Source: a virus | Length of the DNA: 64,000 bases | Direction: 5' to 3' (one strand) | IMG/VR virus record: IMGVR_UViG_3300046787_000327 | Coordinates: 1 to 64,000 of that record | In this document: positions 7,530-31,650 of the stretch, piece by piece | Layout: every line of letters starts with the position of its first letter | Position numbering within the stretch: position 1 is the stretch's first letter | Made by a program: the position numbers and the translations under genes | Notes under the pieces: generated by a model | Databases searched by the model: none | The model's input: only the letters and a program-made list of their open reading frames with translations | Told to the model about the DNA's origin: nothing

Positions 7530-8267
7530 ATGGCTATTTCAAAGAGCGTTGATTTTCCAGGTGCAAGCAAAAATAGTTATGCTGCCCAAGTACAACAAAA
7601 TAAAGAATCTACATCACAGGAAAATGCTTTGTCATTTTTACCAGTTCCTGGACCACAAGGACCACAAGGAAATCCAGGCAGAGATGGAAAAGATGGGATA
7701 CCTGGAAAAGAAGGATCTCAAGGCCCAGAAGGACCAAAGGGGGACAGGGGTGAGCGAGGGTATCCAGGTAAAGATGGAGAAAGTTCGTTATCTTCTTCTG
7801 GACAACAGGCAGGCTGGGCAAGTTACTCTAGTAATGACACCAAAGCAATTCGTCTTGGAGCAGACAAAGGTACAGATGGTTGGGTCGATGTATTTTTAGG
7901 AAAAACAGTAAAAGCAAATGAAGATTTTTTGCCAAAAGACTCAGTGAGCCTTTGGAATGAGCACAATAGGCTTCTAAACTTTAGAGGTCTGAAGATTGGT
8001 TCTCAAGTCTTTGTAACCTATAACTTTGATGTGACTACATTTTCTCCAAATACTGAAATCTGGCTAAGAACATTTTTCCCGTCAATTGACTTTGATGTGT
8101 CTCAATTCGTTGGTTCTTTTAAGTATCAGCACACATACTCTCTTTCTGTTACCCAGAAGGTTTTTGTAGAAAACAAGGAGGTCTGGGCAGCAGGTGCCAT
8201 ACCTCAGATCCGATCAGACTTTGATGCTTCAGCAATTCTTAATTCTATCTATGTCAGCGTGGTATAA
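7530..8267 (+). CDS. Collagen-like tail fiber protein, 245 aa
   Basis: A 40-residue N-terminal segment leads into 15 uninterrupted Gly-X-Y triplets (residues 41-85; GPQ, GNP, GRD, GKD, GIP and so on). This predicts a trimeric collagen-like shaft. The C-terminal 150 residues are beta-rich and probably form the trimeric head. Gly-X-Y shafts are common in phage fibers. Pro occupies the X position in GPQ, GPE and GPK and the Y position in GNP, GIP and GYP; the Y positions are where prolyl 4-hydroxylase acts in animal collagen. A GAAAG ribosome site precedes the ATG. Several oxygenases are encoded nearby. Confidence 0.85.
   Translation: MAISKSVDFPGASKNSYAAQVQQNKESTSQENALSFLPVPGPQGPQGNPGRDGKDGIPGKEGSQGPEGPKGDRGERGYPGKDGESSLSSSGQQAGWASYSSNDTKAIRLGADKGTDGWVDVFLGKTVKANEDFLPKDSVSLWNEHNRLLNFRGLKIGSQVFVTYNFDVTTFSPNTEIWLRTFFPSIDFDVSQFVGSFKYQHTYSLSVTQKVFVENKEVWAAGAIPQIRSDFDASAILNSIYVSVV
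7650..7784 (+). repeat. Collagen-like Gly-X-Y coding repeat (15 triplets)
   Basis: Codons for residues 41-85 of the fiber; Gly at every third residue without a break. Three triplets have Pro at the Y position. Confidence 0.9.
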
Positions 8268-9950: not shown

Positions 9951-10075
9951 TGGCTAAAGTAAAAACAACAGAAGAACAACTTCGTGAAACAGGGATTGCA
10001 AAACTTATTGCATCAACAGGAATTACAGAAGCAGAACTTAGAGCATTGGGGTTGACATCAGATGGCAACAATTAA
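9950..10075 (+). CDS. 41-aa microprotein
   Basis: MAKVKTTEEQLRETGIAKLI and 21 more residues; two short helices. It overlaps the stop of the previous gene by one base (TAATG) and the start of the next by 14 bases, so it is probably coupled to both. Possibly a fiber-associated peptide. Confidence 0.55.
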   Translation: MAKVKTTEEQLRETGIAKLIASTGITEAELRALGLTSDGNN

Positions 10076-12092
10076 TTCAGATGGAAAACTTGCCTATATT
10101 TATAATCAGGCTAACGATACTTGGTATGCAATCTCAGGTGCCGTAAATACTAATGCAGAATATACCTGGACATCTGATCAAGAGTTTGCAGCAGCAGTAA
10201 CATTTGACGCTGTAGCAATAGCAAAGGCTGGAGTAAACAATTTTCAAAACCCTACAGCAAGAGATGCAGCACTAACCTCTCCTACAAATGGAATTGTTTG
10301 TTTTGTTAGACAAAAAAATGACGGCACAGTTATAAATCAAGTTCAGTATTATTACAATGGTGAATGGAGATATATTAATGACTCTACCACTTTTGTTCCA
10401 GTAACAGCAGATTACACAGTTACAAAGGATGATACAGGAAAAACCCTTCTGGTTGATTCCTCGTCAGATATAACAATTACAATTCCATCAAATAGCACTA
10501 CAGCATTTGTTCGTGGACAAAAAATTGAAATTGTTAGAAATGGATCTGGCAAGGTTACAATTGCAAGTGCGCTGGTTAGTGGTACGCCTGTAGTAACAAT
10601 TAATAGCAAGTCATCTAATAAAGATCTTTCTTCACAATTTTCTAGTGCAACAATTACAAAAGTTGACACTAATACCTGGCTACTTACTGGAGATCTAACT
10701 GCTACAGTTACTCCAACTCCAGTTGCGCCTACCCCTACTCCTGTAGCACCAACCCCTGTAGCACCAACCCCTGTTGCACCTACACCAGTGGCTCCTACTC
10801 CTGTAGCACCAACCCCTGTTGCACCAACCCCTGTTGCACCAACCCCTGTTGCACCTACACCAGTTGCACCTACACCAGTTGCACCTACACCAGTTGCGCC
10901 AACGCCTGTAGCACCTACCTATGACATTTATGTAAGTTGCAACGGCTTTAGTGGTAACTACTCAGGTGCCTACGGCACAGCACCAGCAGATAACCCACCT
11001 TACAGTTATTTGAGCGGAACGACAACTCAACTAGGTCTTTCATCTGAACAGATTATTGCAATTGTTGGTATCCCAACCTCTTGTCAGGGAGTTAGCCCAA
11101 CACCTGTAGCACCAACTCCAACTCCTGTTTCACCAACTCCTGTTTCACCAACTCCTGTTTCACCAACGCCTGTTGCACCAACGCCTGTTGCACCAACGCC
11201 TACACCAGTGGCTACGACCTATGACATTTATGTAAGTTGCAACGGCTTTAGTGGTAACTACTCAGGTGCCTACGGTACAGCACCAGCAGATAACCCACCT
11301 TATAGTTACTTAAGTGGAACAACCACCCAGTTGGGTCTTTCATCTGCACAAATTATTGCAATTGTTGGTATCCCAACTTCTTGTCAAGGAGTTAGTCCTA
11401 CACCTGTAGCACCAACACCTACACCAGTTGCTCCTACTCCTGTAGCACCAACACCAGTGGCTCCTACACCAGTGGCTCCTACACCAGTGGCTCCAGTAGC
11501 AGTTGATCCTACACCTGTAGCACCAACACCAGTGGCTCCAGTAGCAGTTGATCCTACACCTGTTGCACCACCGTTCTTCCCGTACTTCATTCCTTGGTTC
11601 GGACCACCATGCGTTGAGGAGAACACTCTAGTGGATACTCCTAATGGACAGATTCCAGTTAAGAATCTTCAGGTAGGTGACGTAATTTGGTCAACACCAA
11701 TTGCTGAACTTGATCCTTCAGAACCAGACTGGCAGAAGTATGCTTGGAACTCTTCAAGCCTAACAACTGGCGAACTTGTTGAGACAACGATTACGGCACT
11801 TGACTCTGTAGAAGAATCAGATATTATCTGCTTCAATGGCAATGAAGACATTAGGCTAACATTTACTCAGCCAATGTTTGTTAAGACATCTGACGGTCAA
11901 TACAAGATTAAGGAAGCCTACTATGTTGAGGTTGGAGATAGCCTAATCGTTATCGACTCAGCAGGAGACACTGTTGAAGTTCCTGTCACAAGCATTGAAC
12001 ACTTCACGGACGAAGTAGTAACTGTTTATCAGTTATCTTGTGAGCCTTATGACTGGTTCTTTGTAAGCGGAATTTTAATTCACAACAAGTAG
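10062..12092 (+). CDS. Pro-rich repeat fiber protein with C-terminal Hint (intein-like) domain, 676 aa
   Basis: Domain order: beta-rich fiber region 1-213, whose 112-213 part matches the C-terminal domain of the fiber at 20433; PTPVA repeats 218-285; a 59-residue two-Cys module 286-344 (C293, C341); PTPVS/PTPVA repeats 346-385; a near-identical second module 386-444; PTPVA/PVAVD repeats 446-503; an aromatic-proline linker (PPFFPYFIPWFGPP); then a Hint domain from C517 to N675 with a single Lys after it. Block A (CVEENTLVDTPNG ... LQVGDVI) and the C-terminal LIHN are clear. The usual block-B His is Gln (TFTQP). Hint domains break the peptide bond before the Cys, here releasing the fiber, perhaps as a thioester. 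With only Lys after HN, normal splicing is not expected. Activity unproven. Confidence 0.8.
   Translation: MATINSDGKLAYIYNQANDTWYAISGAVNTNAEYTWTSDQEFAAAVTFDAVAIAKAGVNNFQNPTARDAALTSPTNGIVCFVRQKNDGTVINQVQYYYNGEWRYINDSTTFVPVTADYTVTKDDTGKTLLVDSSSDITITIPSNSTTAFVRGQKIEIVRNGSGKVTIASALVSGTPVVTINSKSSNKDLSSQFSSATITKVDTNTWLLTGDLTATVTPTPVAPTPTPVAPTPVAPTPVAPTPVAPTPVAPTPVAPTPVAPTPVAPTPVAPTPVAPTPVAPTPVAPTYDIYVSCNGFSGNYSGAYGTAPADNPPYSYLSGTTTQLGLSSEQIIAIVGIPTSCQGVSPTPVAPTPTPVSPTPVSPTPVSPTPVAPTPVAPTPTPVATTYDIYVSCNGFSGNYSGAYGTAPADNPPYSYLSGTTTQLGLSSAQIIAIVGIPTSCQGVSPTPVAPTPTPVAPTPVAPTPVAPTPVAPTPVAPVAVDPTPVAPTPVAPVAVDPTPVAPPFFPYFIPWFGPPCVEENTLVDTPNGQIPVKNLQVGDVIWSTPIAELDPSEPDWQKYAWNSSSLTTGELVETTITALDSVEESDIICFNGNEDIRLTFTQPMFVKTSDGQYKIKEAYYVEVGDSLIVIDSAGDTVEVPVTSIEHFTDEVVTVYQLSCEPYDWFFVSGILIHNK
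10713..10916 (+). repeat. PTPVA coding repeat, first block
   Basis: Codes residues 218-285, about thirteen PTPVA units with synonymous codon variation (gta/gtt/gtg, gca/gcg/gct), which shows selection on the protein repeat. Extensin- or mucin-like. Confidence 0.9.
10917..11393 (+). repeat. Duplicated 59-residue two-Cys module with PTPVS linker
   Basis: Two copies of a module (10917-11093 and 11217-11393) differ by only a few bases and at one residue (SSEQ versus SSAQ). They are separated by a PTPVA/PTPVS linker. Each has two Cys likely to form one disulfide. The duplication looks recent. Confidence 0.9.
11397..11609 (+). repeat. PTPVA/PVAVD repeat before the Hint domain
   Basis: Codes residues 446-516: PTPVA units, two PVAVDPTPVAP units, then the aromatic-proline linker ending FGPP directly before the Hint Cys. 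Confidence 0.85.
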
Positions 12093-12097
12093 TCAAA

Positions 12098-12562
12098 GTG
12101 ATCATTAAGGGGTTCTTGACAGAAGAAGAGTGCAACGCATTTCTTTCAGAAGTCGAGGGAAATCCAGATTGGAAGCCTCAGAGTAAAGACACTGGAATAT
12201 ACATTCTTAAGTCAAGGAATCATAAATTGCTAGTTAATATTTATAAGCGAGTTTCCGAACTTTTTGAAAGCACTCTGCATGCTCAGATTATTAGGCTGAT
12301 ACATAAAACAGACAAGGCCTCTATTTGGGCAAGGCATTCAGACAATGCAGGCGGTAGTGAAATAAAGTACGGAGTAGTTATATATCTAAATGATAATTTT
12401 GAAGGCGGAGAACTTTATTACCCAAGCCTAGGTCTTACAATAAAGCCAGAGAAGGGAATGCTGGTTTATCATCCAGGAGATGAAGATCATGAGGTATTAA
12501 AGGTAGTGGCTGGAGAGCGGTACACCCTAACATCATTTATAAGAAGTCAAGGTAAAAAATAA
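12098..12562 (+). CDS. 2OG-Fe(II) dioxygenase (prolyl 4-hydroxylase-like), 154 aa
   Basis: Compact double-stranded beta-helix enzyme with iron ligands H80, D82 (RHSDN) and H131, and R141 for 2-oxoglutarate. The core strand YLNDNFEGGELYYP is the family hallmark. Such enzymes hydroxylate Pro, Lys or other residues using O2 and 2-oxoglutarate. GTG start at 12098, five bases after the stop of the Hint fiber gene, so it is the first modifying enzyme behind that protein. At 154 residues it is the smallest oxygenase here, close to a minimal catalytic core. Substrate unknown; the Pro-rich fiber is a natural candidate. Confidence 0.85.
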   Translation: MIIKGFLTEEECNAFLSEVEGNPDWKPQSKDTGIYILKSRNHKLLVNIYKRVSELFESTLHAQIIRLIHKTDKASIWARHSDNAGGSEIKYGVVIYLNDNFEGGELYYPSLGLTIKPEKGMLVYHPGDEDHEVLKVVAGERYTLTSFIRSQGKK

Positions 12563-13410: not shown

Positions 13411-14451
13411 ATGGGGAAAATTTTTTATCAACTCTACCAACCCTGCGGACTATTCAATCAAATGACAAGTTTAGAGGTTGCAGTTGGTTTAGCCAGCAGA
13501 TATAAAAAAGATTTAGTGTTTCATAATATCAGTAATCCATCAGATCGAAACTATAATAATAGGAGCGTTCCCATATACTCTGCAAACTATGCATTTAATG
13601 ATAGAAAAGGGTTAATAGATTCAGATGTATTTCCAAGAATATCAGATCTAGTTGACTGGGAAAACAAGAATTCTCAAAGCCTCATTGATACTAAGATTTC
13701 TTATTTTAAAGGCGAAGATTTTAGAGTAGATAATTTGATGGAGTATTATTCAGTTAAGCCAAAAGATAGTTTAGAAAATGAAGAGTCGTTTTCTGAGGGC
13801 AGACAAAGGATAGACCTAACTAATTATAATAACATCCATCTTAGAAAAACTCTTGGATATTACAGCAGGTTCTTTTTTAACAGAGATGCGAAACTAGATA
13901 AAAGTTTAGCATCTGTAAGATTTAAGCCAGAATATTATGAACTAGCAGAACTAGTTGCAAAATCTATTGGAGATTTTAACGGAGTTCACTTTAGGCTAAC
14001 AGACCATAAGGGTATGTTTGATCCAGATAATAATATTTTAGATTCTGGTATAAACCAAATTGATAGTGGTCTTCCCATTGTTATGTGTACTGATCAACCA
14101 GAAAGTAAACTCATTAAAGAGTCTACTTATAACTATTTATTATTAGATGACTATATTTTAAATAATTTTTATAAAGAATTTAGGCAGTTTAAGTTTAAAG
14201 AAGAAGTTTCTTTTGGAATACTAAATAACTTAGTTATGCATTACAGCAACAATTTTATTGGTAGTCCAGGAAGCACTTTTACTGGGTATATTCATAGAGG
14301 AATAAATCAAAAAAGAGATATCAGTTGGAAAGTTTTTGGAGAAACGGAGCATGTTCAAAACGGTCCATACTCCTGGAATGGCTATGATGTTAAAGATAGC
14401 CTTACAAAGCAATGGTGGAGAGAATGGAAAGAGTCGAGGCTAGCAATATGA
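13411..14451 (+). CDS. O-fucosyltransferase-like glycosyltransferase, 346 aa
   Basis: Motifs follow the GDP-fucose transferase fold. An N-terminal GLFNQMTSLEVAVGLA (13-28) corresponds to the G-x-x-NQ motif. GVHFRLTDHKG (191-201) has the H-x-R of the donor site. VMCTDQPE (224-231) and FIGSPGSTFTGYIHR (282-296) match the late S-x-x-STF...R motif. The family transfers L-fucose, or in some cases L-galactose, from GDP-sugars onto Ser/Thr or glycans. The next gene makes GDP-L-galactose (4-bp overlap), which fits this enzyme's expected donor. Target unknown: Thr or hydroxyproline in PTPVA repeats, or a glycan. Confidence 0.7.
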   Translation: MGKIFYQLYQPCGLFNQMTSLEVAVGLASRYKKDLVFHNISNPSDRNYNNRSVPIYSANYAFNDRKGLIDSDVFPRISDLVDWENKNSQSLIDTKISYFKGEDFRVDNLMEYYSVKPKDSLENEESFSEGRQRIDLTNYNNIHLRKTLGYYSRFFFNRDAKLDKSLASVRFKPEYYELAELVAKSIGDFNGVHFRLTDHKGMFDPDNNILDSGINQIDSGLPIVMCTDQPESKLIKESTYNYLLLDDYILNNFYKEFRQFKFKEEVSFGILNNLVMHYSNNFIGSPGSTFTGYIHRGINQKRDISWKVFGETEHVQNGPYSWNGYDVKDSLTKQWWREWKESRLAI

Positions 14452-15488
14452 AAACTGCACTTGTATTAGGGGCTGGAGGCTTTATAGGAAGCCATATGGT
14501 TAAGCGGTTAAAGTCTGAGGGGTACTGGGTAAGAGGAGTTGACTTGAAGCATCCAGAGTTCTCTGACACACAGGCTGATGAGTTTATTGTTCGTGATCTA
14601 TCAGACCAAGACAATATGAATAAGGCCATCTTGTTTAAGGGGTATGCAGGAAACTTTTATAAAGACATCCCATATAAACTATTAGACTCGTTTGACGAGA
14701 TCTATCAGTTTGCAGCAGATATGGGTGGAGCAGGATATATATTTACTGGAGAGAATGATTCTAAAATTATGGAAAACTCTGCATTGATTAATCTTAATTT
14801 GCTTAGAGCACAGTCTAGGTTTAATGATGAGTATGGGGTTAACAAGACAAAGATTTTTTACAGCAGTTCTGCCTGTATGTACCCTGACTATAAGCAGTTG
14901 GATGTTAATAATCCTGGACTCAAGGAGTCTGACGCATACCCTGCTGATCCTGATAGTGAGTATGGCTGGGAAAAGTTGTTTAGTGAAAGATTGTTCCTAG
15001 CCTTTCAAAAAAATAATGGTATCCCCGTAAGAATTGCTAGATACCATAATATTTTTGGACCAGAGGGAACTTGGCAGGGTGGAAAAGAGAAAGCACCAGC
15101 AGCAATATGTAGAAAAGTTATACAGGCAATAGATTCTATGGAAATTTGGGGGGATGGAGAGCAGACACGATCATTTCTATACATAGATGAATGCATAGAG
15201 GCTACAAGAAGGCTCATGTCTTCAGATTTCTCTGGACCTGTAAATATTGGATCTGAGGAAATGGTCACTATCAATCAGTTAGTTGACATTGCCTGTGAAG
15301 TTGAAGGCAAGGACTTAAAAAGGATTCACATACCTGGACCGCTAGGCGTACGTGGCAGAAACTCTAATAATGATTTGGTTAGAAAAGAGTTAGGCTGGGA
15401 CTACTCAATGTCTCTTAAAGAAGGTATAGGAAAAACTTATACCTGGATTAAGGGTCAAATAAATAGCCCCAGCCAACAAATTAGTTAG
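14448..15488 (+). CDS. gme: GDP-mannose 3,5-epimerase (extended SDR), 346 aa
   Basis: Rossmann motif GAGGFIGSH (8-16); ADMGGAGYIF (90-99); SSSACMYP (139-146) with the acid/base Cys at C143; YGWEK (172-176, Tyr-x3-Lys); GTWQGGKEKAPAA (207-219) with the second catalytic Lys near 215; HIPGPLGVRGRNSNND. These match plant-type GDP-mannose 3,5-epimerase, which converts GDP-D-mannose to GDP-L-galactose (and L-gulose). A short insertion near residues 60-82 differs from the plant enzyme. Start at 14448 overlaps the GT stop (ATGA); an in-frame ATG at 14412 lies inside the GT gene. Its 3' end overlaps the leftward lysozyme-like gene by 8 bp. Confidence 0.88.
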   Translation: MKTALVLGAGGFIGSHMVKRLKSEGYWVRGVDLKHPEFSDTQADEFIVRDLSDQDNMNKAILFKGYAGNFYKDIPYKLLDSFDEIYQFAADMGGAGYIFTGENDSKIMENSALINLNLLRAQSRFNDEYGVNKTKIFYSSSACMYPDYKQLDVNNPGLKESDAYPADPDSEYGWEKLFSERLFLAFQKNNGIPVRIARYHNIFGPEGTWQGGKEKAPAAICRKVIQAIDSMEIWGDGEQTRSFLYIDECIEATRRLMSSDFSGPVNIGSEEMVTINQLVDIACEVEGKDLKRIHIPGPLGVRGRNSNNDLVRKELGWDYSMSLKEGIGKTYTWIKGQINSPSQQIS

Positions 15489-22169: not shown

Positions 22170-23438
22170 ATGGCAGCAGGTAAGAAATCAGGCAGAAAGT
22201 CCCAAGCGTCAAATGACTTCTTGGAACCATTAGCACCAACAGGTGTGACTGGAACAGATGTAGGAACAGGAAGAGCATTTGATAATGGTGCAGCAACTGT
22301 TACCTTCTCTTTACCAGCACTATCACCTGCTGCTACATCCTATACAGTAACAGCAAGCACAGGGCAAACAGCAACAGGATCATCTTCTCCTATTACAGTT
22401 ACTGGCTTGCCTTCTAACACATCTGTAACCTTTACAGTAACTGCAACTAATGCTGCAGGAACTTCTCAGGCCTCATCTGCTTCTTCAGCATTAACAGTAA
22501 CAACTGTTCCAGCAACACCTTCAGCACCAACTGCAACAGCAGGTGTTAATCAAGATACAGTTGCATGGACAGCACCATCAAATGGTGGGTCTGCTATTAC
22601 TGGATACACCTGGGCGTCATCAGACTCTAAGGGTGGATCAACTGCAGGAACTTCTGTTACAGTTTCACAGGAAGCAAATACTGCACAGACATATACAGTC
22701 TATGCAACAAATGCTAACGGAAACTCAGGAACATCGGCAGCATCTAACTCTGTTACGACAGTGCCACCGTTCTTCCCACCGTTCTTCCCACCTTACTTCC
22801 CTTACTTCCCTTACTTCCCGTTCTTCCCACCATTCTTCCCACCATCATTCCCATTCTTCCCACCGTTCTTCCCGTTCTTCCCACCATTCTTCCCACCGTT
22901 CTTCCCACCATCATTTCCGTACTTCCCGTACTTCATCCCTTGGTTTGGACCACCATGTGTAGAAGAGAACACACTGGTTGACACACCTAACGGACAGATT
23001 CCTGTAAAGAATCTTCAAGTTGGAGATGTAATTTGGTCAACACCAATCACTGAACTAGACGAGTCTGAGCCAGACTGGAACAAGTACGCTTGGTCCTCAA
23101 ACAGCCTAAATACAGGCAACTTGGTTGAGACAACTATTACAGCGATGGAGACTGTTGAGGAGTCAGATATCATCTGTTTCAATGGAAACACAGATATTCG
23201 AATTACCTTCACACAACCAATATTCGTAAAAACACTCAATAATCAGTACAAGATTAAAGAGGCCTACTACGTAGAAATTGGAGAGAGTTTGATAGTCGTA
23301 GACTCAACTGGTCAAAAGGTTGAAGTTCCTGTAACAGATATCGAACACTTCACAGACGAAGTAGTCAATGTATACCAGATTTCCTGTGAACCGTACGACT
23401 GGTTCTTTGTAAGTGGTATACTAGTACACAACAAGTAA
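22170..23438 (+). CDS. FN3 / FFPP-repeat protein with C-terminal Hint domain, 422 aa
   Basis: A Lys/Ser-rich start is followed by two FN3-like domains (about 22-112 and 115-198). Then comes a 64-residue stretch built almost only of Phe, Tyr and Pro (199-262; FFPP, YFPYFP units), and a Hint domain from C263 to N421 with a single terminal Lys. The linker PYFIPWFGPP and the Hint domain are close paralogues of those in the 676-aa fiber at 10062; both have TFTQP where a TxxH motif is expected, and both end VHN/IHN plus K. Likely a secreted or virion surface protein processed at FGPP|C. AGGAG ribosome site. Followed directly by the oxygenase operon. Confidence 0.8.
   Translation: MAAGKKSGRKSQASNDFLEPLAPTGVTGTDVGTGRAFDNGAATVTFSLPALSPAATSYTVTASTGQTATGSSSPITVTGLPSNTSVTFTVTATNAAGTSQASSASSALTVTTVPATPSAPTATAGVNQDTVAWTAPSNGGSAITGYTWASSDSKGGSTAGTSVTVSQEANTAQTYTVYATNANGNSGTSAASNSVTTVPPFFPPFFPPYFPYFPYFPFFPPFFPPSFPFFPPFFPFFPPFFPPFFPPSFPYFPYFIPWFGPPCVEENTLVDTPNGQIPVKNLQVGDVIWSTPITELDESEPDWNKYAWSSNSLNTGNLVETTITAMETVEESDIICFNGNTDIRITFTQPIFVKTLNNQYKIKEAYYVEIGESLIVVDSTGQKVEVPVTDIEHFTDEVVNVYQISCEPYDWFFVSGILVHNK
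22764..22955 (+). repeat. FFPP / YFPYFP aromatic-proline coding repeat
   Basis: Encodes residues 199-262. Units of ttcttcccacc and variants; only Phe, Tyr and Pro with a few Ser, Ile, Trp and Gly at the end. Low complexity, directly before the Hint Cys. Confidence 0.9.
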
Positions 23439-23460: not shown

Positions 23461-24129
23461 ATGTCAGTCGAAACTAACGACGGTATGCTCCCTGCCTCTT
23501 CTATTGATAGGGAAATACTAATGCCAGGTTTAGTGGTATATAAAAATGTTATCCCTAATGGGCAAAAGGTTATAGATGATCTTGAGGGCGTTCTTGTCGA
23601 TGGAAGTAATTATAGATGGAGTCAGGCAACAGTTGGCAACAGGCAAAGAATGGTTGACTACAGAGATTGCCTAGATTTTAAATTTAAAAAATCCACTATT
23701 GTTGGAACAGATGAAAACTCTGAAACAGTCAAGGATTCTTGGCAATACCTATATGACAGAATGAACGCAGCAGTCGAAGATTATGTCAAACTCTATCCAA
23801 TGGAAAAGTTAGAGTATTGGGAATCTATTAATTTAATTAAGTATTATCCTGGTAATCACTTTCAGTCACATGCAGATGACGGGGCATCATATAAGTCTGT
23901 CGTGTCTTTAGTTGGATACCTAAACGATGACTATGAAGGTGGAGAACTGTCGTTTGATGCGTACAACATTAAGATAAAGCCACAGGCGGGAGATCTTGTT
24001 ATTTTCCCATCTAATTTTATGTTTATCCACAAGGCATGGCCAGTAGTTGAAGGCATTAAGTATTCTATAGTCACTATGCTAGACTACAGTGACAAGTTTC
24101 ATACACAGAGGTTTTATTATGGAAAGTAA
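23461..24129 (+). CDS. 2OG-Fe(II) dioxygenase (P4H-like, subgroup K), 222 aa
   Basis: Iron ligands H137, D139 (QSHADDG) and H190; core strand YLNDDYEGGELSF; K200 in GIKYSIVTMLDY at the 2-oxoglutarate position. It shares DYRDCLDFKFKK and the C-terminal TMLDYSDKFHT with the enzyme at 27454, and similar elements with that at 26726, so these three form one subgroup. First gene behind the second Hint protein; GGGGG lies before the ATG. Predicted cytoplasmic protein hydroxylase; substrate unknown. Confidence 0.85.
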   Translation: MSVETNDGMLPASSIDREILMPGLVVYKNVIPNGQKVIDDLEGVLVDGSNYRWSQATVGNRQRMVDYRDCLDFKFKKSTIVGTDENSETVKDSWQYLYDRMNAAVEDYVKLYPMEKLEYWESINLIKYYPGNHFQSHADDGASYKSVVSLVGYLNDDYEGGELSFDAYNIKIKPQAGDLVIFPSNFMFIHKAWPVVEGIKYSIVTMLDYSDKFHTQRFYYGK

Positions 24130-24664
24130 AGAATTAGCACTTGGAGTAAGACTATATAGCAATATAGATCTTCCATGTAAAGAAGAAGTCCTGAATTTAA
24201 ATTTTGCTGGTGCAAAAATGGAAGGGGTAATCAAGAATAACCAGTTTGAGGTAGATTATGAAAACCGTATAACATATTCTATAGATATCCCATATTTAAA
24301 TAAAGATGATAATAAGTTCACAGATATATTCAGAGAGACCTTTGATCCAGTAGAACGAGATTACATGTCTTTGATGAACATTGCCATGAGATCGCACAAT
24401 CCATACAAAATATTAAAGTATGAAGTTGGTGGAAAGTTTGAGAGCCATATAGACGATGGTGGTGGAAACTTTAGAAGAATGTCGACAGTGTATTACCTAA
24501 ATGATGACTATGAGGGCGGTGAGTTATGCTTTCCACAGTTTGGCATAGAGTTAAAGCCAAAGGCAGGAGATATGGTAATCTTCCCATCCTCATACGTTTA
24601 TTCTCATAGTGTAAATCCAGTCACATCTGGTAATAGGTTCTCAATAGCAAGTTGGCTAAAATGA
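24119..24664 (+). CDS. 2OG-Fe(II) dioxygenase (P4H-like), 181 aa
   Basis: Ligands H110, D112 (ESHIDDG), H163; R173 (GNRFSIASW) for 2-oxoglutarate; core YLNDDYEGGELCFP. Start at 24119 (MESKELALGV) overlaps the upstream gene by 11 bases; an upstream in-frame ATG at 24089 lies deep in that gene. Small enzyme without extra domains. Belongs to the Arg-type subgroup. Confidence 0.83.
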   Translation: MESKELALGVRLYSNIDLPCKEEVLNLNFAGAKMEGVIKNNQFEVDYENRITYSIDIPYLNKDDNKFTDIFRETFDPVERDYMSLMNIAMRSHNPYKILKYEVGGKFESHIDDGGGNFRRMSTVYYLNDDYEGGELCFPQFGIELKPKAGDMVIFPSSYVYSHSVNPVTSGNRFSIASWLK

Positions 24665-25152
24665 TTAAGGTTATAAGTACACCTGCTAACATAGAAGATC
24701 TAGTTAATATTAATGAAAAACTAGACAAAGTTCTCCCACTCAACAAGTTTGAAGATAATCCACATTGGTCAGATGATGCAATTAGCGCAGATCAGATTTA
24801 TAGAATTCAAAAATTTGTAGGTCGTGTTGTTGAGGAGACTGGTGTAATTTTGCAGGGGCAGGTAATAGATATGTTTGGTAATACAAATAAGGTGTTCCCA
24901 TATAACATACAACTTATTAAGATAGATAAGAATACATTTAGCACAGATGTCATAGTCGAAGATCAGATATGTCAAACAATTACCCCACTTAAAAATGAAT
25001 GCAAGACCTATGTTTTGATGAATGATTCAGGGTATGTAGAGGTGGAAGATCTTGTTCATGGAGATTATGCTATAGCAACATACTGGACTGAGTATAGAGA
25101 CATGAGATATAAGAATTGGTTTATTGGCAAGTATATGGTGAGATATGTATAA
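24661..25152 (+). CDS. Hypothetical protein within oxygenase operon, 163 aa
   Basis: ATG overlaps the preceding stop (ATGA), and its own end overlaps the next oxygenase by 8 bases, so it is cotranslated with the enzymes. No H-x-D or other known motif. N-terminal 65 residues are helical; the C-terminal part is beta-rich with GYVEVEDLVHGDYAIATYWT. Could be a partner or substrate carrier, or a virion protein. Not recognised. Confidence 0.6.
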   Translation: MIKVISTPANIEDLVNINEKLDKVLPLNKFEDNPHWSDDAISADQIYRIQKFVGRVVEETGVILQGQVIDMFGNTNKVFPYNIQLIKIDKNTFSTDVIVEDQICQTITPLKNECKTYVLMNDSGYVEVEDLVHGDYAIATYWTEYRDMRYKNWFIGKYMVRYV

Positions 25153-25924
25153 GAAGGACTTAGATTCTCCAAAGGTAAGGGTTGTAGAGAATTTCATCGA
25201 TGATGCTACATGTGATTATTTAATTAACTATGCACAGCAAGAGGATCTTTGGGATAACTTTAACGACACTATCAAGAGTTATGTTTTTAAAGACAAGGAA
25301 GAGTATATCTCAGCAGGTAAGCAGTGGAACAATAGAAGAATTGACATTAATGAGTTATATCTCCAGGGCATGGATAAGAGAAAGGGTTTCTTTGATGTTG
25401 TGCTACCACTACAGTACAAGATGCACGATGAGGTAGTAGATTTTCTTAAGCCAGACTTTGAACTTCACAGTGAACTGTGGGAGATTGTAAGATGGCAAAA
25501 AGGAAATCTGCAAGAGCCACACGTAGACCATATTGATCCAGACTTTGACCTTTCTTCCGTCAACCTTGACCTAGTTCCAGAAGAGTGTAAGTACTTTTTT
25601 GAAGAAAGAAATATTGAAAAATATAAAAGACTCTTTACAAACAAAGCCTTTACTTCTATTATTTATCTTAATGATGACTACGAGGGAGGCGAATTATATT
25701 TCCCACAGCATGATGGATTTAAGATAAAACCTAAAAAGGGAACGATGCTAATATTTAGCGGTACGATTGATAATATGCACGGAATCAAAGAAGTTACAGA
25801 TGGAACAAGATATACACATGTTACTTTCTGGTCCAACAACATTTCTAAATCAAGCAGAATTGCTTTTGATAAAAAGGTTAATCGTCTTGTTGTTGATGAT
25901 GAGCATAAGCCTCTTATAGATTAA
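25145..25924 (+). CDS. 2OG-Fe(II) dioxygenase (P4H-like), 259 aa
   Basis: Ligands H126, D128 (PHVDHID), H212 (NMHGIKEV), R222 (GTRYTHVTFW); core YLNDDYEGGELYFP. Longest oxygenase here: a long acidic insertion (residues about 130-168) separates the first ligand pair from the core strand, which could shape a dedicated substrate site. N-terminal helical domain as in P4H proteins. Confidence 0.85.
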   Translation: MYKKDLDSPKVRVVENFIDDATCDYLINYAQQEDLWDNFNDTIKSYVFKDKEEYISAGKQWNNRRIDINELYLQGMDKRKGFFDVVLPLQYKMHDEVVDFLKPDFELHSELWEIVRWQKGNLQEPHVDHIDPDFDLSSVNLDLVPEECKYFFEERNIEKYKRLFTNKAFTSIIYLNDDYEGGELYFPQHDGFKIKPKKGTMLIFSGTIDNMHGIKEVTDGTRYTHVTFWSNNISKSSRIAFDKKVNRLVVDDEHKPLID

Positions 25925-25931
25925 TCATTTA

Positions 25932-25940
25932 TGATATACT
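25932..25940 (+). promoter_or_regulatory. Extended -10 TGA-TATACT within oxygenase operon
   Basis: TATACT 25935-25940; short leader with AAGGGGAAAG before the ATG at 25959. Confidence 0.5.
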
Positions 25941-25958
25941 TGACTAAAAGGGGAAAGT

Positions 25959-26726
25959 ATGAATAACATTATTTCATTTATGTCTAATAGGCCTTGGCTC
26001 AAAAAGGATAGCAACTCTGTCCCAACCCCAATGATTAAAACAATGCCAGACTGGTACAGAGAAGCCGATAGATTTGCAAAGATGCCAAATGGTGAATTTT
26101 ACAAAGCACCAAAAGGTATATGTCCTTATCCAAAAGAAGGAACTACAGATGACTATGGCCTAATTCCCACATGGAAAGCATGTCCCTCAGTTTTTGATAT
26201 CATGGGGACAGGTTACTCACTAAACCTACCATGCGATATAGAGTTTATACAAAAAGATGATGGCACACTGGTGGTAAATATAGAAGATAAGCAGTATAAA
26301 GATTTTTGTACTCCAAGACCACCAATGGCACAATTTCAACACCCAATGGGTTACAACGAGCATCACTTTGCTTGGTTTATAGATTGGGCAATGAAAACTC
26401 CAGAAGGATATAGCAGTTTGATTACTCAACCGTTCAACAGGTTTGAATTACCATTCTTAAACACCTCTGGTATAATTGACACAGACAAGGTTCATCTAAT
26501 GGGATCCCTACCATTCTTTATTGTGAAGGGGTGGTCAGGAACTCTAAAGGCTGGAACAACTTTTGCACAGGTCTTGCCTTTTAAGAGAGAAGACTGGTCA
26601 TCAGAAGTTTCTATAGAAAACCCAATGAACATGTACACAAAGAACAAAGAGAATTCTGAAATTTATAGAGTCCCAGATGGAGGGGTTTATAAAAATACAG
26701 TATGGAGCAGAAGGAAGTATGAATAA
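25959..26726 (+). CDS. DUF6065-like protein, 255 aa
   Basis: Features include PTPMIKTMPDWYREADRF, a CPSVFDIMGTGYSLNLPCDIE segment, HPMGYNEHHFAWFIDWAMKT, GYSSLITQPFNRFELPF, and SGIIDTDKV ... GTTFAQVLPFKREDW. I recognise this layout as a phage/bacterial family I recall as DUF6065, of unknown biochemical role. A more diverged relative is encoded at 28127. Interleaved with dioxygenases and translationally coupled to the next one (TAATG), suggesting a shared pathway. Confidence 0.6.
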   Translation: MNNIISFMSNRPWLKKDSNSVPTPMIKTMPDWYREADRFAKMPNGEFYKAPKGICPYPKEGTTDDYGLIPTWKACPSVFDIMGTGYSLNLPCDIEFIQKDDGTLVVNIEDKQYKDFCTPRPPMAQFQHPMGYNEHHFAWFIDWAMKTPEGYSSLITQPFNRFELPFLNTSGIIDTDKVHLMGSLPFFIVKGWSGTLKAGTTFAQVLPFKREDWSSEVSIENPMNMYTKNKENSEIYRVPDGGVYKNTVWSRRKYE

Positions 26727-27454
26727 TGACAGAACATGATGAAAACTTAAATCACTGGTTTATCAAAGATAGATCAGAGACAGCATCAAACAGGCTAGCA
26801 CCACGACAGGTAGGCAAAGATATTGTGGTTGAAAATTTAGCCCTAGGTCTAAATGTATACCGTAATACTTTTACCTTAGATGATGCCAACAGGTATATAG
26901 ACACCCTTGAGTCAAATCTTTCTTCTGGTAAAAAGTATTCCTGGTCAGAGGCACAAGTAACCAATTCAACTACACCTATTAAAAAGGCAAGAGACTGTGT
27001 AGACTTTAGGTTTAAGCAAGAAAACCTAGGTCCAAGAGACGAAGCAAATGCCGAACTCCTTGACTTGCATGAAGAGATTTACCAAAAATTAAAGTTTTGC
27101 ATAGATGACTATGCACAATATTGGGGCATTAATGTTGTTTACTATGAAGCATTTAATTTTGTAAAGTATGAGGGCAAGGGGACACACTTTAACATCCATG
27201 CAGACCATGGCCCAGCATACAACTCTACTGTATCAGCAGTTATTTATATCAATGACGATTATGAAGGCGGGGACTTAAAATTCCCAAGACTAGATAATAT
27301 TGTGTATAAGCCAAGAGTTGGCGATATCGCTGTATTCCCATCAAACTATATCTATGAGCATGCATCTCTGCCCATGGAGTCAGGAACTAAGTATTGTGTT
27401 GTAGTAATGACAGATATTAATGAATTGAGTCATCAACAAGTTAGGGGCATCTAA
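26726..27454 (+). CDS. 2OG-Fe(II) dioxygenase (P4H-like, subgroup K), 242 aa
   Basis: Ligands H158, D160 (NIHADHG), H212 (YEHAS), K222; core YINDDYEGGDLKFP. Shares RDCVDFRFK and the PSNYIYEH ... GTKYCVVVMTD end with the enzymes at 23461 and 27454. An extra N-terminal 35 residues, charged, precede the fold. Coupled to both neighbours by TAATG. Confidence 0.85.
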   Translation: MTEHDENLNHWFIKDRSETASNRLAPRQVGKDIVVENLALGLNVYRNTFTLDDANRYIDTLESNLSSGKKYSWSEAQVTNSTTPIKKARDCVDFRFKQENLGPRDEANAELLDLHEEIYQKLKFCIDDYAQYWGINVVYYEAFNFVKYEGKGTHFNIHADHGPAYNSTVSAVIYINDDYEGGDLKFPRLDNIVYKPRVGDIAVFPSNYIYEHASLPMESGTKYCVVVMTDINELSHQQVRGI

Positions 27455-28125
27455 TGCAAACATGGACAGATAAGGTAGATTTTGGTAGCGGAATTATTTG
27501 CTACAAAGGGGTTGTAAAAAAGGAATTTGATGTAATCAATAGACTTGAAAAGAATCTTGGATCGGTTGCTGACTATAACTCATTATCACCAGAAGGCAAT
27601 CGTTATCATTGGCACCCAGCATATGTAGGGTATCAGCAATTAATGCCAGACTACAGAGACTGCGTTGACTTTAAGTTTAAGAAGACTGATATCGAGTTAG
27701 ATAGGAGCACTGTTTCTTTAGAGTTGCAGGATTTATGGCAAGACCTATATGATGCCAAGTTGCCAGCGGTAGAAGATTATTCTAGAATGTATAATATTAA
27801 TAATCTTCAGTATTGGGAAGCAATGAATTTTATTCGTTATGGAGAAGGTCAGCACTTCAAAGAGCACCATGACCATGGATTCTCCTATAACTGTACAGTT
27901 TCACTAGTTGCATATCCAAATGATGATTATGAAGGTGGCGAACTCTTCTTTAGACTTCAGGGACTGACAGTAAAGCCTGAAGCGGGAGACCTATTCGTGT
28001 TTCCTTCTAACTATATGTACCCTCATCAGGCTATGCCAGTTACTTCTGGGGTTAAGTATTCAATTGTTACCATGCTAGATTATAATAAGAAGTTTCATAC
28101 ACCAGAAATGTATATGGCTGACTAG
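27454..28125 (+). CDS. 2OG-Fe(II) dioxygenase (P4H-like, subgroup K), 223 aa
   Basis: Ligands H138, D140 (KEHHDHG), H191 (YPHQA), K201 (GVKYSIVTMLDY); core YPNDDYEGGELFF. Closest in the window to the enzyme at 23461, with DYRDCVDFKFKK and the same C terminus, indicating gene duplication. ATG overlaps the previous stop (TAATG). Confidence 0.85.
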   Translation: MQTWTDKVDFGSGIICYKGVVKKEFDVINRLEKNLGSVADYNSLSPEGNRYHWHPAYVGYQQLMPDYRDCVDFKFKKTDIELDRSTVSLELQDLWQDLYDAKLPAVEDYSRMYNINNLQYWEAMNFIRYGEGQHFKEHHDHGFSYNCTVSLVAYPNDDYEGGELFFRLQGLTVKPEAGDLFVFPSNYMYPHQAMPVTSGVKYSIVTMLDYNKKFHTPEMYMAD

Positions 28126-28126
28126 T

Positions 28127-28846
28127 ATGATAAACATTAGAGTTGAAAAAACACCAGGCTCAACATTTAAGATTGAGCCAATGTCAATTAAAAGAGATTG
28201 GATGGATTTAACTCCTGAAAATCATGCATACAGATGTTTTCCAGTAACACAGTCAAATGTAATTGGCTGGAGCCTTTCTTCTACTAGCGATATTGTTTTC
28301 AGGTGGGACGGGGTAAATGATTCAAGTCCAAACCATGTTGAAATCTTTAGTCCACAAGAAGGTTCTTATAGTGGTAGAGGGCAATCATCTGTAAGCCTAG
28401 ATACTGGCCTAATTTTTAAAACAGAAAGTGATACCAGTATTTGGACTATAAACCCAGTAAATTATTTTAGCGATGATTTCGAGACAATCTCTAGTTTAAT
28501 TAGTACATCGTTTTATGGTAATCCTTTGCCACTCGCTATTAAAGCAAAAAGATCACAAGAACTTGTAACAATCAAAGCAGGAACTCCTCTTGCAACAATC
28601 ATTCCAATCTCACTAACAAATCTGAATAATAGTACTATTGAAATAGTAAGGTATCAGGACTTTGATGGGAAAAGACAAGAAGATAGCAGGGCCTATGGAG
28701 ACGCAGCACAAGCAGTAAATGCATCAGGACAGTGGACAGACTGGTATAGAAATGCTGTGAATGAAAAAAATGAGTCACTCGGCTCTCATGAAGTTAAGGC
28801 TCTTAAACTTGAAGTAAACGATACAACGAATGGTGATATAATATAA
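28127..28846 (+). CDS. DUF6065-like protein, diverged, 239 aa
   Basis: HAYRCFPVTQSNVIGWSLSS, FRWDGVNDSSPNH, then SIWTINPVNYFSDDFETISS, and a late ITIKAGTPLATIIPIS-type strand (VTIKAGTPLATII). The order parallels the 255-aa protein at 25959: a Pro-rich start, a central aromatic strand, then the K-A-G-T-x3-x2-P motif. It is likely a distant paralogue. Role unknown; cotranscribed with the oxygenases. Confidence 0.5.
   Translation: MINIRVEKTPGSTFKIEPMSIKRDWMDLTPENHAYRCFPVTQSNVIGWSLSSTSDIVFRWDGVNDSSPNHVEIFSPQEGSYSGRGQSSVSLDTGLIFKTESDTSIWTINPVNYFSDDFETISSLISTSFYGNPLPLAIKAKRSQELVTIKAGTPLATIIPISLTNLNNSTIEIVRYQDFDGKRQEDSRAYGDAAQAVNASGQWTDWYRNAVNEKNESLGSHEVKALKLEVNDTTNGDII
28834..28842 (+). promoter_or_regulatory. 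Extended -10 TGA-TATAAT, leaderless arrangement
   Basis: TATAAT 28837-28842 overlaps the end of the preceding gene; 6 nt to the ATG at 28849. Confidence 0.6.
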
Positions 28847-28848
28847 AT

Positions 28849-29529
28849 ATGGAACAAAATAAAGACTCATATAAAATAGTAAAGAGAACTCCTTCAATTA
28901 CTCCTTCAGGCTGGTTTGGGGATAGTAAGGATATGATCGTTGAATTAGAAAACTTTATGACTGAAGAAGAGATAGAGTTCTTAGAGAAGGCTGCAAAGTC
29001 GTTGACTATTTGGGATGTAACTGAAAGCCATGTAAATGAGAATGGAACTGTTACATATGATTCAAACTATTGGAAGGATAGAGTTGCAACAACTCCAACT
29101 TTAAATAAGAATGATCCGTCCATTGCTCCCGTTATAGAGGGTCTATTCAAGAGATTAAAGCCAATTGTAGAAGAGTTTTATAGTGTAGAGGTTGTGCCAA
29201 CAGGAACAACTATTGTTAAGTGGCTTCCAGGCCAGTTCCAACAGCCACATGCAGATAAGGAATTACATGAGGGTCCAGATGCAGGAACGCCAAACGATTT
29301 TCCAAACTATGACCTATCTAGTTTATTTTATCTAAATGATGATTATGAGGGCGGAGAATTATACTTCCCACTACAAGGGGTACAGTTTAAGCCTAAAAAG
29401 GGTGCAGCATATTTCTTTCCAGGGGACAGAAACTTTGTCCATGGTGTTACAGAGATCAAGAGCGGTCTAAGATTTACCTGCCCATTCTTTTGGGAGATCA
29501 CCAAGCATACAGGAGATAGACAGCCATGA
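28849..29529 (+). CDS. 2OG-Fe(II) dioxygenase (P4H-like), 226 aa
   Basis: Ligands H134, D136 (QPHADKE), H198 (FVHGV), R208 (GLRFTCPFFWE); core YLNDDYEGGELYFP. N-terminal segment KIVKRTPSITPSGWFG is unusual. Leaderless start gives this half of the operon its own promoter. Its TGA overlaps the next ATG by 4 bases. Confidence 0.85.
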   Translation: MEQNKDSYKIVKRTPSITPSGWFGDSKDMIVELENFMTEEEIEFLEKAAKSLTIWDVTESHVNENGTVTYDSNYWKDRVATTPTLNKNDPSIAPVIEGLFKRLKPIVEEFYSVEVVPTGTTIVKWLPGQFQQPHADKELHEGPDAGTPNDFPNYDLSSLFYLNDDYEGGELYFPLQGVQFKPKKGAAYFFPGDRNFVHGVTEIKSGLRFTCPFFWEITKHTGDRQP

Positions 29530-30272
29530 ATCTAAACAATAAAAAAAGAATTACAAAAGATATCGTTATATATGAAAACTTCTTGACTGAGGAAGAGTCA
29601 GCAAAGATTATCAAGGTTTTAGATGCACAGGCAGATGGCGGTCATATGACTTGGATGCCCATCTCATTCTATGAGTCATACTCTTCTGTTTTACCTCAAG
29701 ACGGAGATAAAGAGATTGAGGATTTTGGACTACCACCTACAATATTTTCAGATATTGAGAAGACAATCCCTGTAGCCGTTGCTTCTGTTCATGACCTAGA
29801 TCCAGCAACTATCCATAAGATTGGCTACCACACTCAAAAGTGGGAGCCTGGAGCATTTGCAAGACTCCACTCTGACAATACGGATGATAAGGGTAACTCT
29901 GGTGCTTTCACAAGAAGTCGTTATGCAGCGTTTGTATACCTTAACGAAGACTTTGAAGGAGGAATGCTAAGGTTCCCAACTAATGATATTGAGATCAAGC
30001 CTCAGACTGGACTGCTTGCTGTTTTTGACGGGGGATTTGAAAACATGCACGAGGTAAGTCTTATTACTAAGGGTATTAGATACACTATCGGATCCTTCTG
30101 GGATGATAGAGCGGAGTCTGACTACCCACAAGAACTCAGAGATGCTTGGGCTGAAGAAATGAAACAGACTAGAGCACAGCAAGAGATTGAAAGAGCAGAG
30201 TGGCAAAGCCTCCTTAAGGAAGGTTTTAAGTTAGATGATATGGGAAACAAGTATAAGGTAGAGGAACTTTAA
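29526..30272 (+). CDS. 2OG-Fe(II) dioxygenase (P4H-like), 248 aa
   Basis: Ligands H115, D117 (RLHSDNT), H175 (NMHEV), R185 (GIRYTIGSFWDD); core YLNEDFEGGMLRFP. The C-terminal 50 residues after the core are charged and helical (EEMKQTRAQQEIERAEWQ), absent from the other members, perhaps a docking tail. Confidence 0.85.
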   Translation: MNLNNKKRITKDIVIYENFLTEEESAKIIKVLDAQADGGHMTWMPISFYESYSSVLPQDGDKEIEDFGLPPTIFSDIEKTIPVAVASVHDLDPATIHKIGYHTQKWEPGAFARLHSDNTDDKGNSGAFTRSRYAAFVYLNEDFEGGMLRFPTNDIEIKPQTGLLAVFDGGFENMHEVSLITKGIRYTIGSFWDDRAESDYPQELRDAWAEEMKQTRAQQEIERAEWQSLLKEGFKLDDMGNKYKVEEL

Positions 30273-30273
30273 T

Positions 30274-30936
30274 ATGGATGTTTTCCTAAAGAAAGAACTT
30301 GAAGATGCTGGATTTAGTACTCAAGTGCTTTATGACCATGTTTTAGTTGTTGAAAACTTTTTGTCACAAGAAGAAGTCGAAATTGTAAATAGTATAATTA
30401 GCGAAACTAGCAATGAAGAGTGGTCAAAGGAATACAAGAAAAGTCTTGCAAATTTCTGTATGGAAAAGTTTGGTAGAGATGATGTAGAAAATCTTGTTGC
30501 TGAGGGCAAGTATGAAATTACTCAGGGGTGGGATGATAAAAATCTAGACATTAGCACAAATCCTCTAAGCAGAAAACTACAGGATAGACTTGGAGAGTTG
30601 ATTGCCATAGCAGACAACAGTTTGCAACTAGGTGGATTTGCAACAATGCAGAGAATGCAACCAGGAGTGGAATTAAAGTTGCATACCGATGAGCACACAG
30701 ATCCATCCATTAGGTACGCTGCAATTCTTTATATCAATGACGACTATGCAGACGGAACGCTATTCTTTAAGAATATAGAGGGTTCGGACTTAAAGCCAAA
30801 ACCAGGTACGTTACTTCTTTTCCCAGGAAACGCAGAGTACGAACATGGAGTTAGACATGTAGGGGAAGGTCCAATTAGATATGTTATAGTTGGATTTTTA
30901 AGAATTAAAGATTTCTATGAAAAGAATAAGTACTAA
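30274..30936 (+). CDS. 2OG-Fe(II) dioxygenase (P4H-like), 220 aa
   Basis: Ligands H137, D139 (LHTDEH), H191 (YEHGV), R202 (PIRYVIVGF); core YINDDYADGTLFF, where the usual EGGEL is ADGTL. Helical N-terminal 120 residues. Starts 2 bases after the preceding gene. Confidence 0.83.
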   Translation: MDVFLKKELEDAGFSTQVLYDHVLVVENFLSQEEVEIVNSIISETSNEEWSKEYKKSLANFCMEKFGRDDVENLVAEGKYEITQGWDDKNLDISTNPLSRKLQDRLGELIAIADNSLQLGGFATMQRMQPGVELKLHTDEHTDPSIRYAAILYINDDYADGTLFFKNIEGSDLKPKPGTLLLFPGNAEYEHGVRHVGEGPIRYVIVGFLRIKDFYEKNKY

Positions 30937-30945
30937 GGGGGAACT

Positions 30946-31650
30946 ATGGAAAAGCAGATTTTAGAAGAGAAGGTCTACTACTACGAAACTGGAGTGAAGG
31001 ACTTTGAGAAACTCATGGAGACTATCGATGAGTTAGATAGCCTTGAGTCAGAGACTGGAGTATCATCCTGGCATGACTGGACAGCATCAAACGATAAAGA
31101 CTTTATCTATGGCTCTACAAAGACATTTGACATTAATCATATTAATGGACTAGAAGAGCCTTACAAGTCAAAGATGGCATTTGTATATAAAACCATTATG
31201 GACTCCTTCTATGATGTGTCTAAGGACTATGCTCTTGCATTAGGTGATACAGATGAGCCAAGACTATTTCCAACCTTTAATATCAAGAAGTACAAAGAAG
31301 GAACAAGTATGGGGGCTCACTTTGATCAACTTGATGGAGATGAAACTCTTAGATATTCACTAGTCATGTATCTAAATGACGATTTTGATGGTGGAGAGAT
31401 CTCTTTCTCAATGTCTGACTACTCAGGTGTTTTAAAGAAGCAAACGCCTCATCCAGATTATGACCATCCAGACAATGCCAAGTTAATGGATTTTTCAATT
31501 AAGCCAAAGGCTGGAAGCATCATTATCTTCCCATCTTCAGCACCATATCATCACACTGCCCACCTTGTTAAAAGCAAGTTTAAGTATATGGTCCCAGGAC
31601 ACTGGATTCATAACAACATGGACTTTTATCGCTCTTCTGGCAGTATGTAG
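30946..31650 (+). CDS. 2OG-Fe(II) dioxygenase (P4H-like), 234 aa
   Basis: Ligands H125, D127 (GAHFDQL), H203, K213 (KFKYMVPGHW); core YLNDDFDGGEISF. An insertion with HPDYDHPDNAK (residues about 160-180) follows the core strand. Lys rather than Arg at the 2-oxoglutarate site. GGGGAA before the ATG. Its stop overlaps the GTG of the dehydrogenase. Confidence 0.83.
   Translation: MEKQILEEKVYYYETGVKDFEKLMETIDELDSLESETGVSSWHDWTASNDKDFIYGSTKTFDINHINGLEEPYKSKMAFVYKTIMDSFYDVSKDYALALGDTDEPRLFPTFNIKKYKEGTSMGAHFDQLDGDETLRYSLVMYLNDDFDGGEISFSMSDYSGVLKKQTPHPDYDHPDNAKLMDFSIKPKAGSIIIFPSSAPYHHTAHLVKSKFKYMVPGHWIHNNMDFYRSSGSM

Follow-up and report, generated by a model that had tools for sequence, protein, structure and literature searches.

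A Hint domain resembling bacterial intein-like domains at the C terminus of two fiber-like proteins of a virus

Bacterial intein-like (BIL) domains that lack a nucleophile at position +1 mainly cleave (PMC7664689), and the BIL2 domain of Tetrahymena uses a Lys as nucleophile, which results in an isopeptide bond (PMC8616854). Here we analyse a Hint domain that stands at the C terminus of two fiber-like proteins encoded in 64,000 nucleotides of viral DNA, positions 1 to 64,000 of the IMG/VR record IMGVR_UViG_3300046787_000327; we refer to this whole stretch as the window and, unless indicated otherwise, give its coordinates. The source record has 112,951 bases and contains two copies of the domain. 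To our knowledge, no phage fiber is known to use thioester chemistry for its maturation.

The domain shares with the A-type BIL domains (2lwy) the Hint fold, Cys1, the terminal His-Asn and the absence of Cys, Ser or Thr at +1. In contrast to them, the viral family mostly has Gln at block B, has a C-extein of 1-7 residues with a conserved Lys, and is found on viral fibers. Both window copies carry the N-terminal Cys and the terminal His-Asn that define the A-type, while both have Gln in place of the block B His (TxxH); because of this replacement we call the domain BIL-like and not a standard BIL domain. Tetrahymena BUBL BIL2 (PDB 6y75, 6tmm) is the top fold match, yet it has ubiquitin-like domains on both sides and a block B His, whereas the phage-fiber Hint has no C-terminal domain and any Lys chemistry of it is hypothetical. 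With the C-terminal autoprocessing domain of Hedgehog (PDB 1at0) the domain shares the fold and Cys1, and it would likewise pass its thioester to a nucleophile from outside; unlike Hedgehog, it has no sterol-recognition region, ends with His-Asn and Lys, and has Gln in block B.

Domains of this kind were seen in phages before. Phage NCTB and the giant phages of Erwinia and Dickeya (Y3, AD1, Alexandra) also have a C-terminal Hint on a tail protein and a short Lys-containing C-extein, and the GenBank records of NCTB and Y3 already read "contains intein domain". These Hints differ from ours: they are about 27% identical, have the canonical His in block B and C-exteins of 7-10 residues, and in Y3 carry a Thr at +1. 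The view of the original prediction, that such a route is not described for phage fibers, thus needs a correction as far as annotation is concerned and stands with respect to function: our searches of the open-licence literature returned no publication that deals with Hint domains of phage fibers or with their function. Uncultured phage proteins in UniProt/BFVD are predicted to fold very similarly (TM 0.86-0.90 on the query) and apparently belong to the same family; they carry automatic names only ("Hint domain containing protein", "Fibronectin type III", "PASTA_pknB"). In phage NCTB, a stand-alone Hint-like protein of 153 residues is encoded directly after the Hint-capped tail protein (L264:12480-12941). 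It lacks the Cys usual for block A and the His usual for block B, and ends with HNKVD; it might act in trans or have decayed.

Two fiber-like proteins with a Hint domain

Fiber-like protein 1 (10062..12092, 676 aa, stop codon TAG) and fiber-like protein 2, with all their parts described below, are encoded on the + strand. The N-terminal part of protein 1 is similar to tail families of PHROG (minor tail phrog_8780, 2.6e-11; tail fiber phrog_16053, 1.4e-8). It is followed by PTPVA repeats (26 PTPVA) flanking two copies of a module that starts with TYDIYVSCNGFSG (10713..11567), and by an aromatic/proline linker, PPFFPYFIPWFGPP (11568..11609), the putative new C terminus of the fiber. The Hint domain, C517-N675 (159 residues), occupies 11610..12089 together with Lys676. 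Indeed, residue 517 of this open reading frame (ORF) is Cys (codon 11610-11612), residue 675 is Asn and residue 676 is Lys, after which comes TAG. Block A consists of CVEENTLVDTPNG and LQVGDVI; the block B motif TFTQP (11859..11873) has Gln603 at the usual position of the catalytic His (B:10); blocks F and G, CEPYDWFFVSGILIHN, are followed by the lone Lys (12039..12089), so that the protein terminates as VSGILIHN-K.

The original prediction had proposed a Hint domain with these limits, this block A and this terminus, and the codons, the profile and the fold all agree with it. A profile search, whose failure it had named as a refutation, does return a Hint match. In Pfam, single sequences stay below the gathering cut-offs: Hint_2 matches the whole protein 1 with E=5e-4, and the domain alone gives 2.4e-5 for Hint_2 and 4.8e-4 for Intein_splicing. 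A profile built from 48 members of the family matches the BIL domain 2lwy of Clostridium thermocellum with 8.8e-8, the best PDB sequence match, and several inteins at 1e-4. The AlphaFold model made from the alignment of 48 relatives has a pLDDT (predicted local distance difference test) of 92.6 and a pTM (predicted template modelling score) of 0.87. With this model Foldseek finds BIL2, 2lwy and inteins as the best matches, all with probability 1.00, a value also reached by Hedgehog; an NCBIfam search gave nothing useful. By fold and family profile, the C terminus of ORF 10062-12092 is confirmed as a member of the Hint superfamily. Since the catalytic residues are kept in 83 distinct homologues, the resemblance is far beyond chance.

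A second copy, the wider family and the Gln of block B are points that go beyond the original prediction. Fiber-like protein 2 (22170..23438, 422 aa) consists of an Fn3 region, (FFPP)n repeats and a C-terminal Hint domain, which extends from C263 to HNK (22956..23435) and is 84% identical to Hint 1. The junction IPWFGPP|C and the HNK end are common to both copies.

Three other assignments were considered and put aside. A splicing intein is rejected: the domain is C-terminal in every complete homologue, with a C-extein of 1-7 residues and no +1 nucleophile. The +1 residue of protein 1 is Lys and the protein ends there; hence ordinary splicing is not expected, as the original prediction had argued, because there is no Cys, Ser or Thr at +1 and no real C-extein. 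A Hedgehog-type domain is rejected as well, given the missing sterol-recognition region and the end of protein 1 one residue past His-Asn. The reading as a class 3 intein, with its block F Cys, was set aside because the domain retains Cys1 and the Cys in block F falls short of invariance (61/64).

Conservation in the viral family

Scans of IMG/VR returned many relatives, among them several contigs with two Hint genes. Conservation was evaluated in 83 distinct viral Hint sequences with a lowest pairwise identity of 22%; these homologues are related, and the counts below are not independent. Cys1 and the penultimate His are kept in 83/83, and Asn in 82/83. The +1 residue is Lys, or else Leu, Val, Tyr or Arg followed by Lys, so that a Lys is found at +1 or +2 in every member (83/83), and 71 of the 83 end with a single Lys right after the Asn position. 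As a background, Lys is the last residue in 13% of 799 neighbouring predicted genes and is within the last two residues in 24%. For usable pairs, pairwise omega (the ratio of nonsynonymous to synonymous divergence) is 0.03-0.11, while the synonymous divergence (dS) of the two window copies is saturated; these values point to strong purifying selection on the Hint domain.

What precedes the domain is far more variable. The front halves of the Hint genes differ, comprising Fn3 with FFPP-type repeats, modular fibers with PTP-type repeats, and PASTA-like repeats. The linker end IPWFGPP is invariant across close clades and varies in more distant members, and at position -1 the 83 sequences show 11 kinds of residue; therefore, the conserved unit is the Hint and not the fiber. 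In the tree both window copies fall into one clade, with relatives at 83-95% identity that span the two front-half types; the same mixture is seen in the next clade. This suggests that the Hint domains of one lineage evolve together, though many branches are weakly supported. One scan of cellular genomes gave a single match, a short Hint-like segment in a Candidatus Levyibacteriota metagenome-assembled genome (L107), so at the sensitivity of that scan the family looks viral. One member (L153:7236-8462) ends with HIK and not HNK, has an altered block F and sits on a long branch; this copy is possibly inactive.

At the block B position, Gln occurs in 72/83 members, His in 11/83, and no other residue is found. 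The assignment of this column is backed by profile alignments, in which the Gln of the family pairs with the His of both 2lwy and the Pyrococcus CDC21 intein, and by outgroups that carry His there. On the tree, changes between Gln and His take at least 4 steps by parsimony, of which well-supported branches alone force 1. The restriction of this position to Gln or His suggests that it is still functional. The family supplies many natural Hint domains that are seemingly functional without the His regarded as most essential and have a conserved Lys tail in addition, and it probes the minimal requirements of a Hint active site.

What the domain may do

We lean, if only slightly, towards an active BIL-like autoprocessing Hint that caps two surface fibers and either releases the fiber or passes it to an acceptor. 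According to this scheme, Cys517 would attack the Pro516-Cys517 bond to give a thioester, the role of the usual His being taken by Gln603; the fiber would next be set free by water or some other nucleophile, leaving the end ...IPWFGPP, and cyclisation at His674-Asn675 would break the bond to Lys676. The scheme is based on the Hint sequence and fold, the conservation of the catalytic residues, the purifying selection, the lack of a +1 nucleophile as in BIL domains that mainly cleave, and the C-terminal place on fiber-like proteins; the occurrence of the steps, the sequence in which they follow and the nature of the acceptor are inferred. If the domain is active, novel tools for cleavage or ligation could be derived from it, as well as a new route to build or arm phage fibers.

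Several observations weigh against this scheme. Pro at -1, as in Pro516, is unfavourable for thioester formation. The block B His normally drives the first step by helping the N-S acyl shift, and here it is mostly replaced by Gln. At position 13 of block F, 76/83 members have Asp. The conservation of His-Asn and of the following Lys, which the original prediction left unexplained, exceeds what a simple N-terminal cleavage needs. According to a 2014 review, the block B His is the most conserved residue of inteins, and of the two inteins then known to lack it, one is a pseudogene and in the other a Lys takes its place (PMC4031507). Bulky -1 residues can substitute for the block B His in an engineered intein (PMC6333167). 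In our opinion, BIL-like autoprocessing remains the best reading, and in this respect the original prediction of a process other than splicing is supported; its N-terminal cleavage is not established, given the block B Gln and the -1 Pro.

The same two residues, each of which should impair the N-terminal step, would suit a domain that performs the C-terminal half-reaction only, in which cyclisation at His-Asn drops the terminal Lys and the folded Hint remains on the fiber tip; the near invariance of His-Asn and of the following Lys agrees with this as well. However, Cys1 is not needed for a C-terminal reaction and is nevertheless kept in 83/83, and the loss of one Lys serves no obvious purpose, hence we consider this unlikely. 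It is also improbable, in our view, that the domain is a silent structural or folding cap, comparable to the C-terminal chaperone domains of tail fibers. The Hint does sit C-terminally on repetitive fibers, and phage fibers are known to carry C-terminal chaperones that detach themselves, peptidase S74 among them (PMC7824862), but conservation is centred on the catalytic residues down to 22% identity, and a purely structural role should not require Cys1 and Asn. Decay of a selfish intein would account for the altered block B residue and for the loss of Asn in L153, yet this idea is very improbable and we reject it on the grounds of selection and placement: omega is low, the catalytic residues are invariant, the C-terminal position is constant, there are two copies per genome and there is no endonuclease.

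The remaining explanations concern the fate of a thioester. The C-terminal Lys itself could be the acceptor, its amine taking the fiber from the Cys1 thioester and Asn cyclisation then freeing a Lys-bearing fiber. The excess of Lys at +1/+2 over the neighbouring genes speaks for it, as do the isopeptide chemistry of Tetrahymena BIL2 (PMC8616854) and the short Lys-containing tails of the distant phage Hint proteins. However, the homologues are not independent, the Lys could have another role, and it is not clear what a fiber would gain from a Lys at its tip; we regard this proposal as quite unlikely. Doubtful too is the broader idea of a virus-wide system for capping fibers, in which a Hint with Gln for the catalytic His would use its thioester to join the fiber C terminus by an amide bond to an amine, be it the tail Lys of the same or the sister fiber or an amine of the virion or host. 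If so, the two Hint-capped fibers of one genome could be covalently coupled. Crosslinking of the fiber to a partner, as raised by the original prediction, is only a possibility.

Neighbouring genes and host

Each Hint gene of the window is directly followed by a gene for a 2OG-Fe(II) oxygenase on the + strand (12098..12562 after the first, 23461..24129 after the second), which is an association only; the product of the first might be a partner that modifies the fiber. A member of this family is the next gene for 47 of the 80 Hint genes that have a downstream neighbour, and the family is present at 64/74 Hint loci, some of which share a contig and are not independent. The second of these oxygenases opens a run of paralogues (23461-31650) with 9 PF13640 matches at 23833-31593, and one more match is at 84896 of the record. 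The paralogues adjoin proline-rich and collagen-like fibers; as a speculation, they may be prolyl hydroxylases that act on these fibers. Inside the run there is a DUF6065 protein (28127-28846; PF19541, 2.3e-26). Neither the cluster-17 genes, located downstream of some Hint genes, nor positions 25959-26723 of the window gave a match in Pfam.

Upstream of Hint gene 1 lies a collagen-like tail fiber (7530-8267; PF01391, 1.4e-8). At 13411-14451 there is an O-fucosyltransferase-like match below the cut-off (PF10250, E=0.02), adjoined by a protein that by its sequence resembles a nucleotide-sugar epimerase (14412-15488); the genes at 13411-15488 are possibly involved in glycosylation of the fiber or the surface. 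In the aligned part of the best records, the portal is 47% and the head protease 54% identical to counterparts in Streptomyces phages, and because of this resemblance an actinobacterial host seems plausible.
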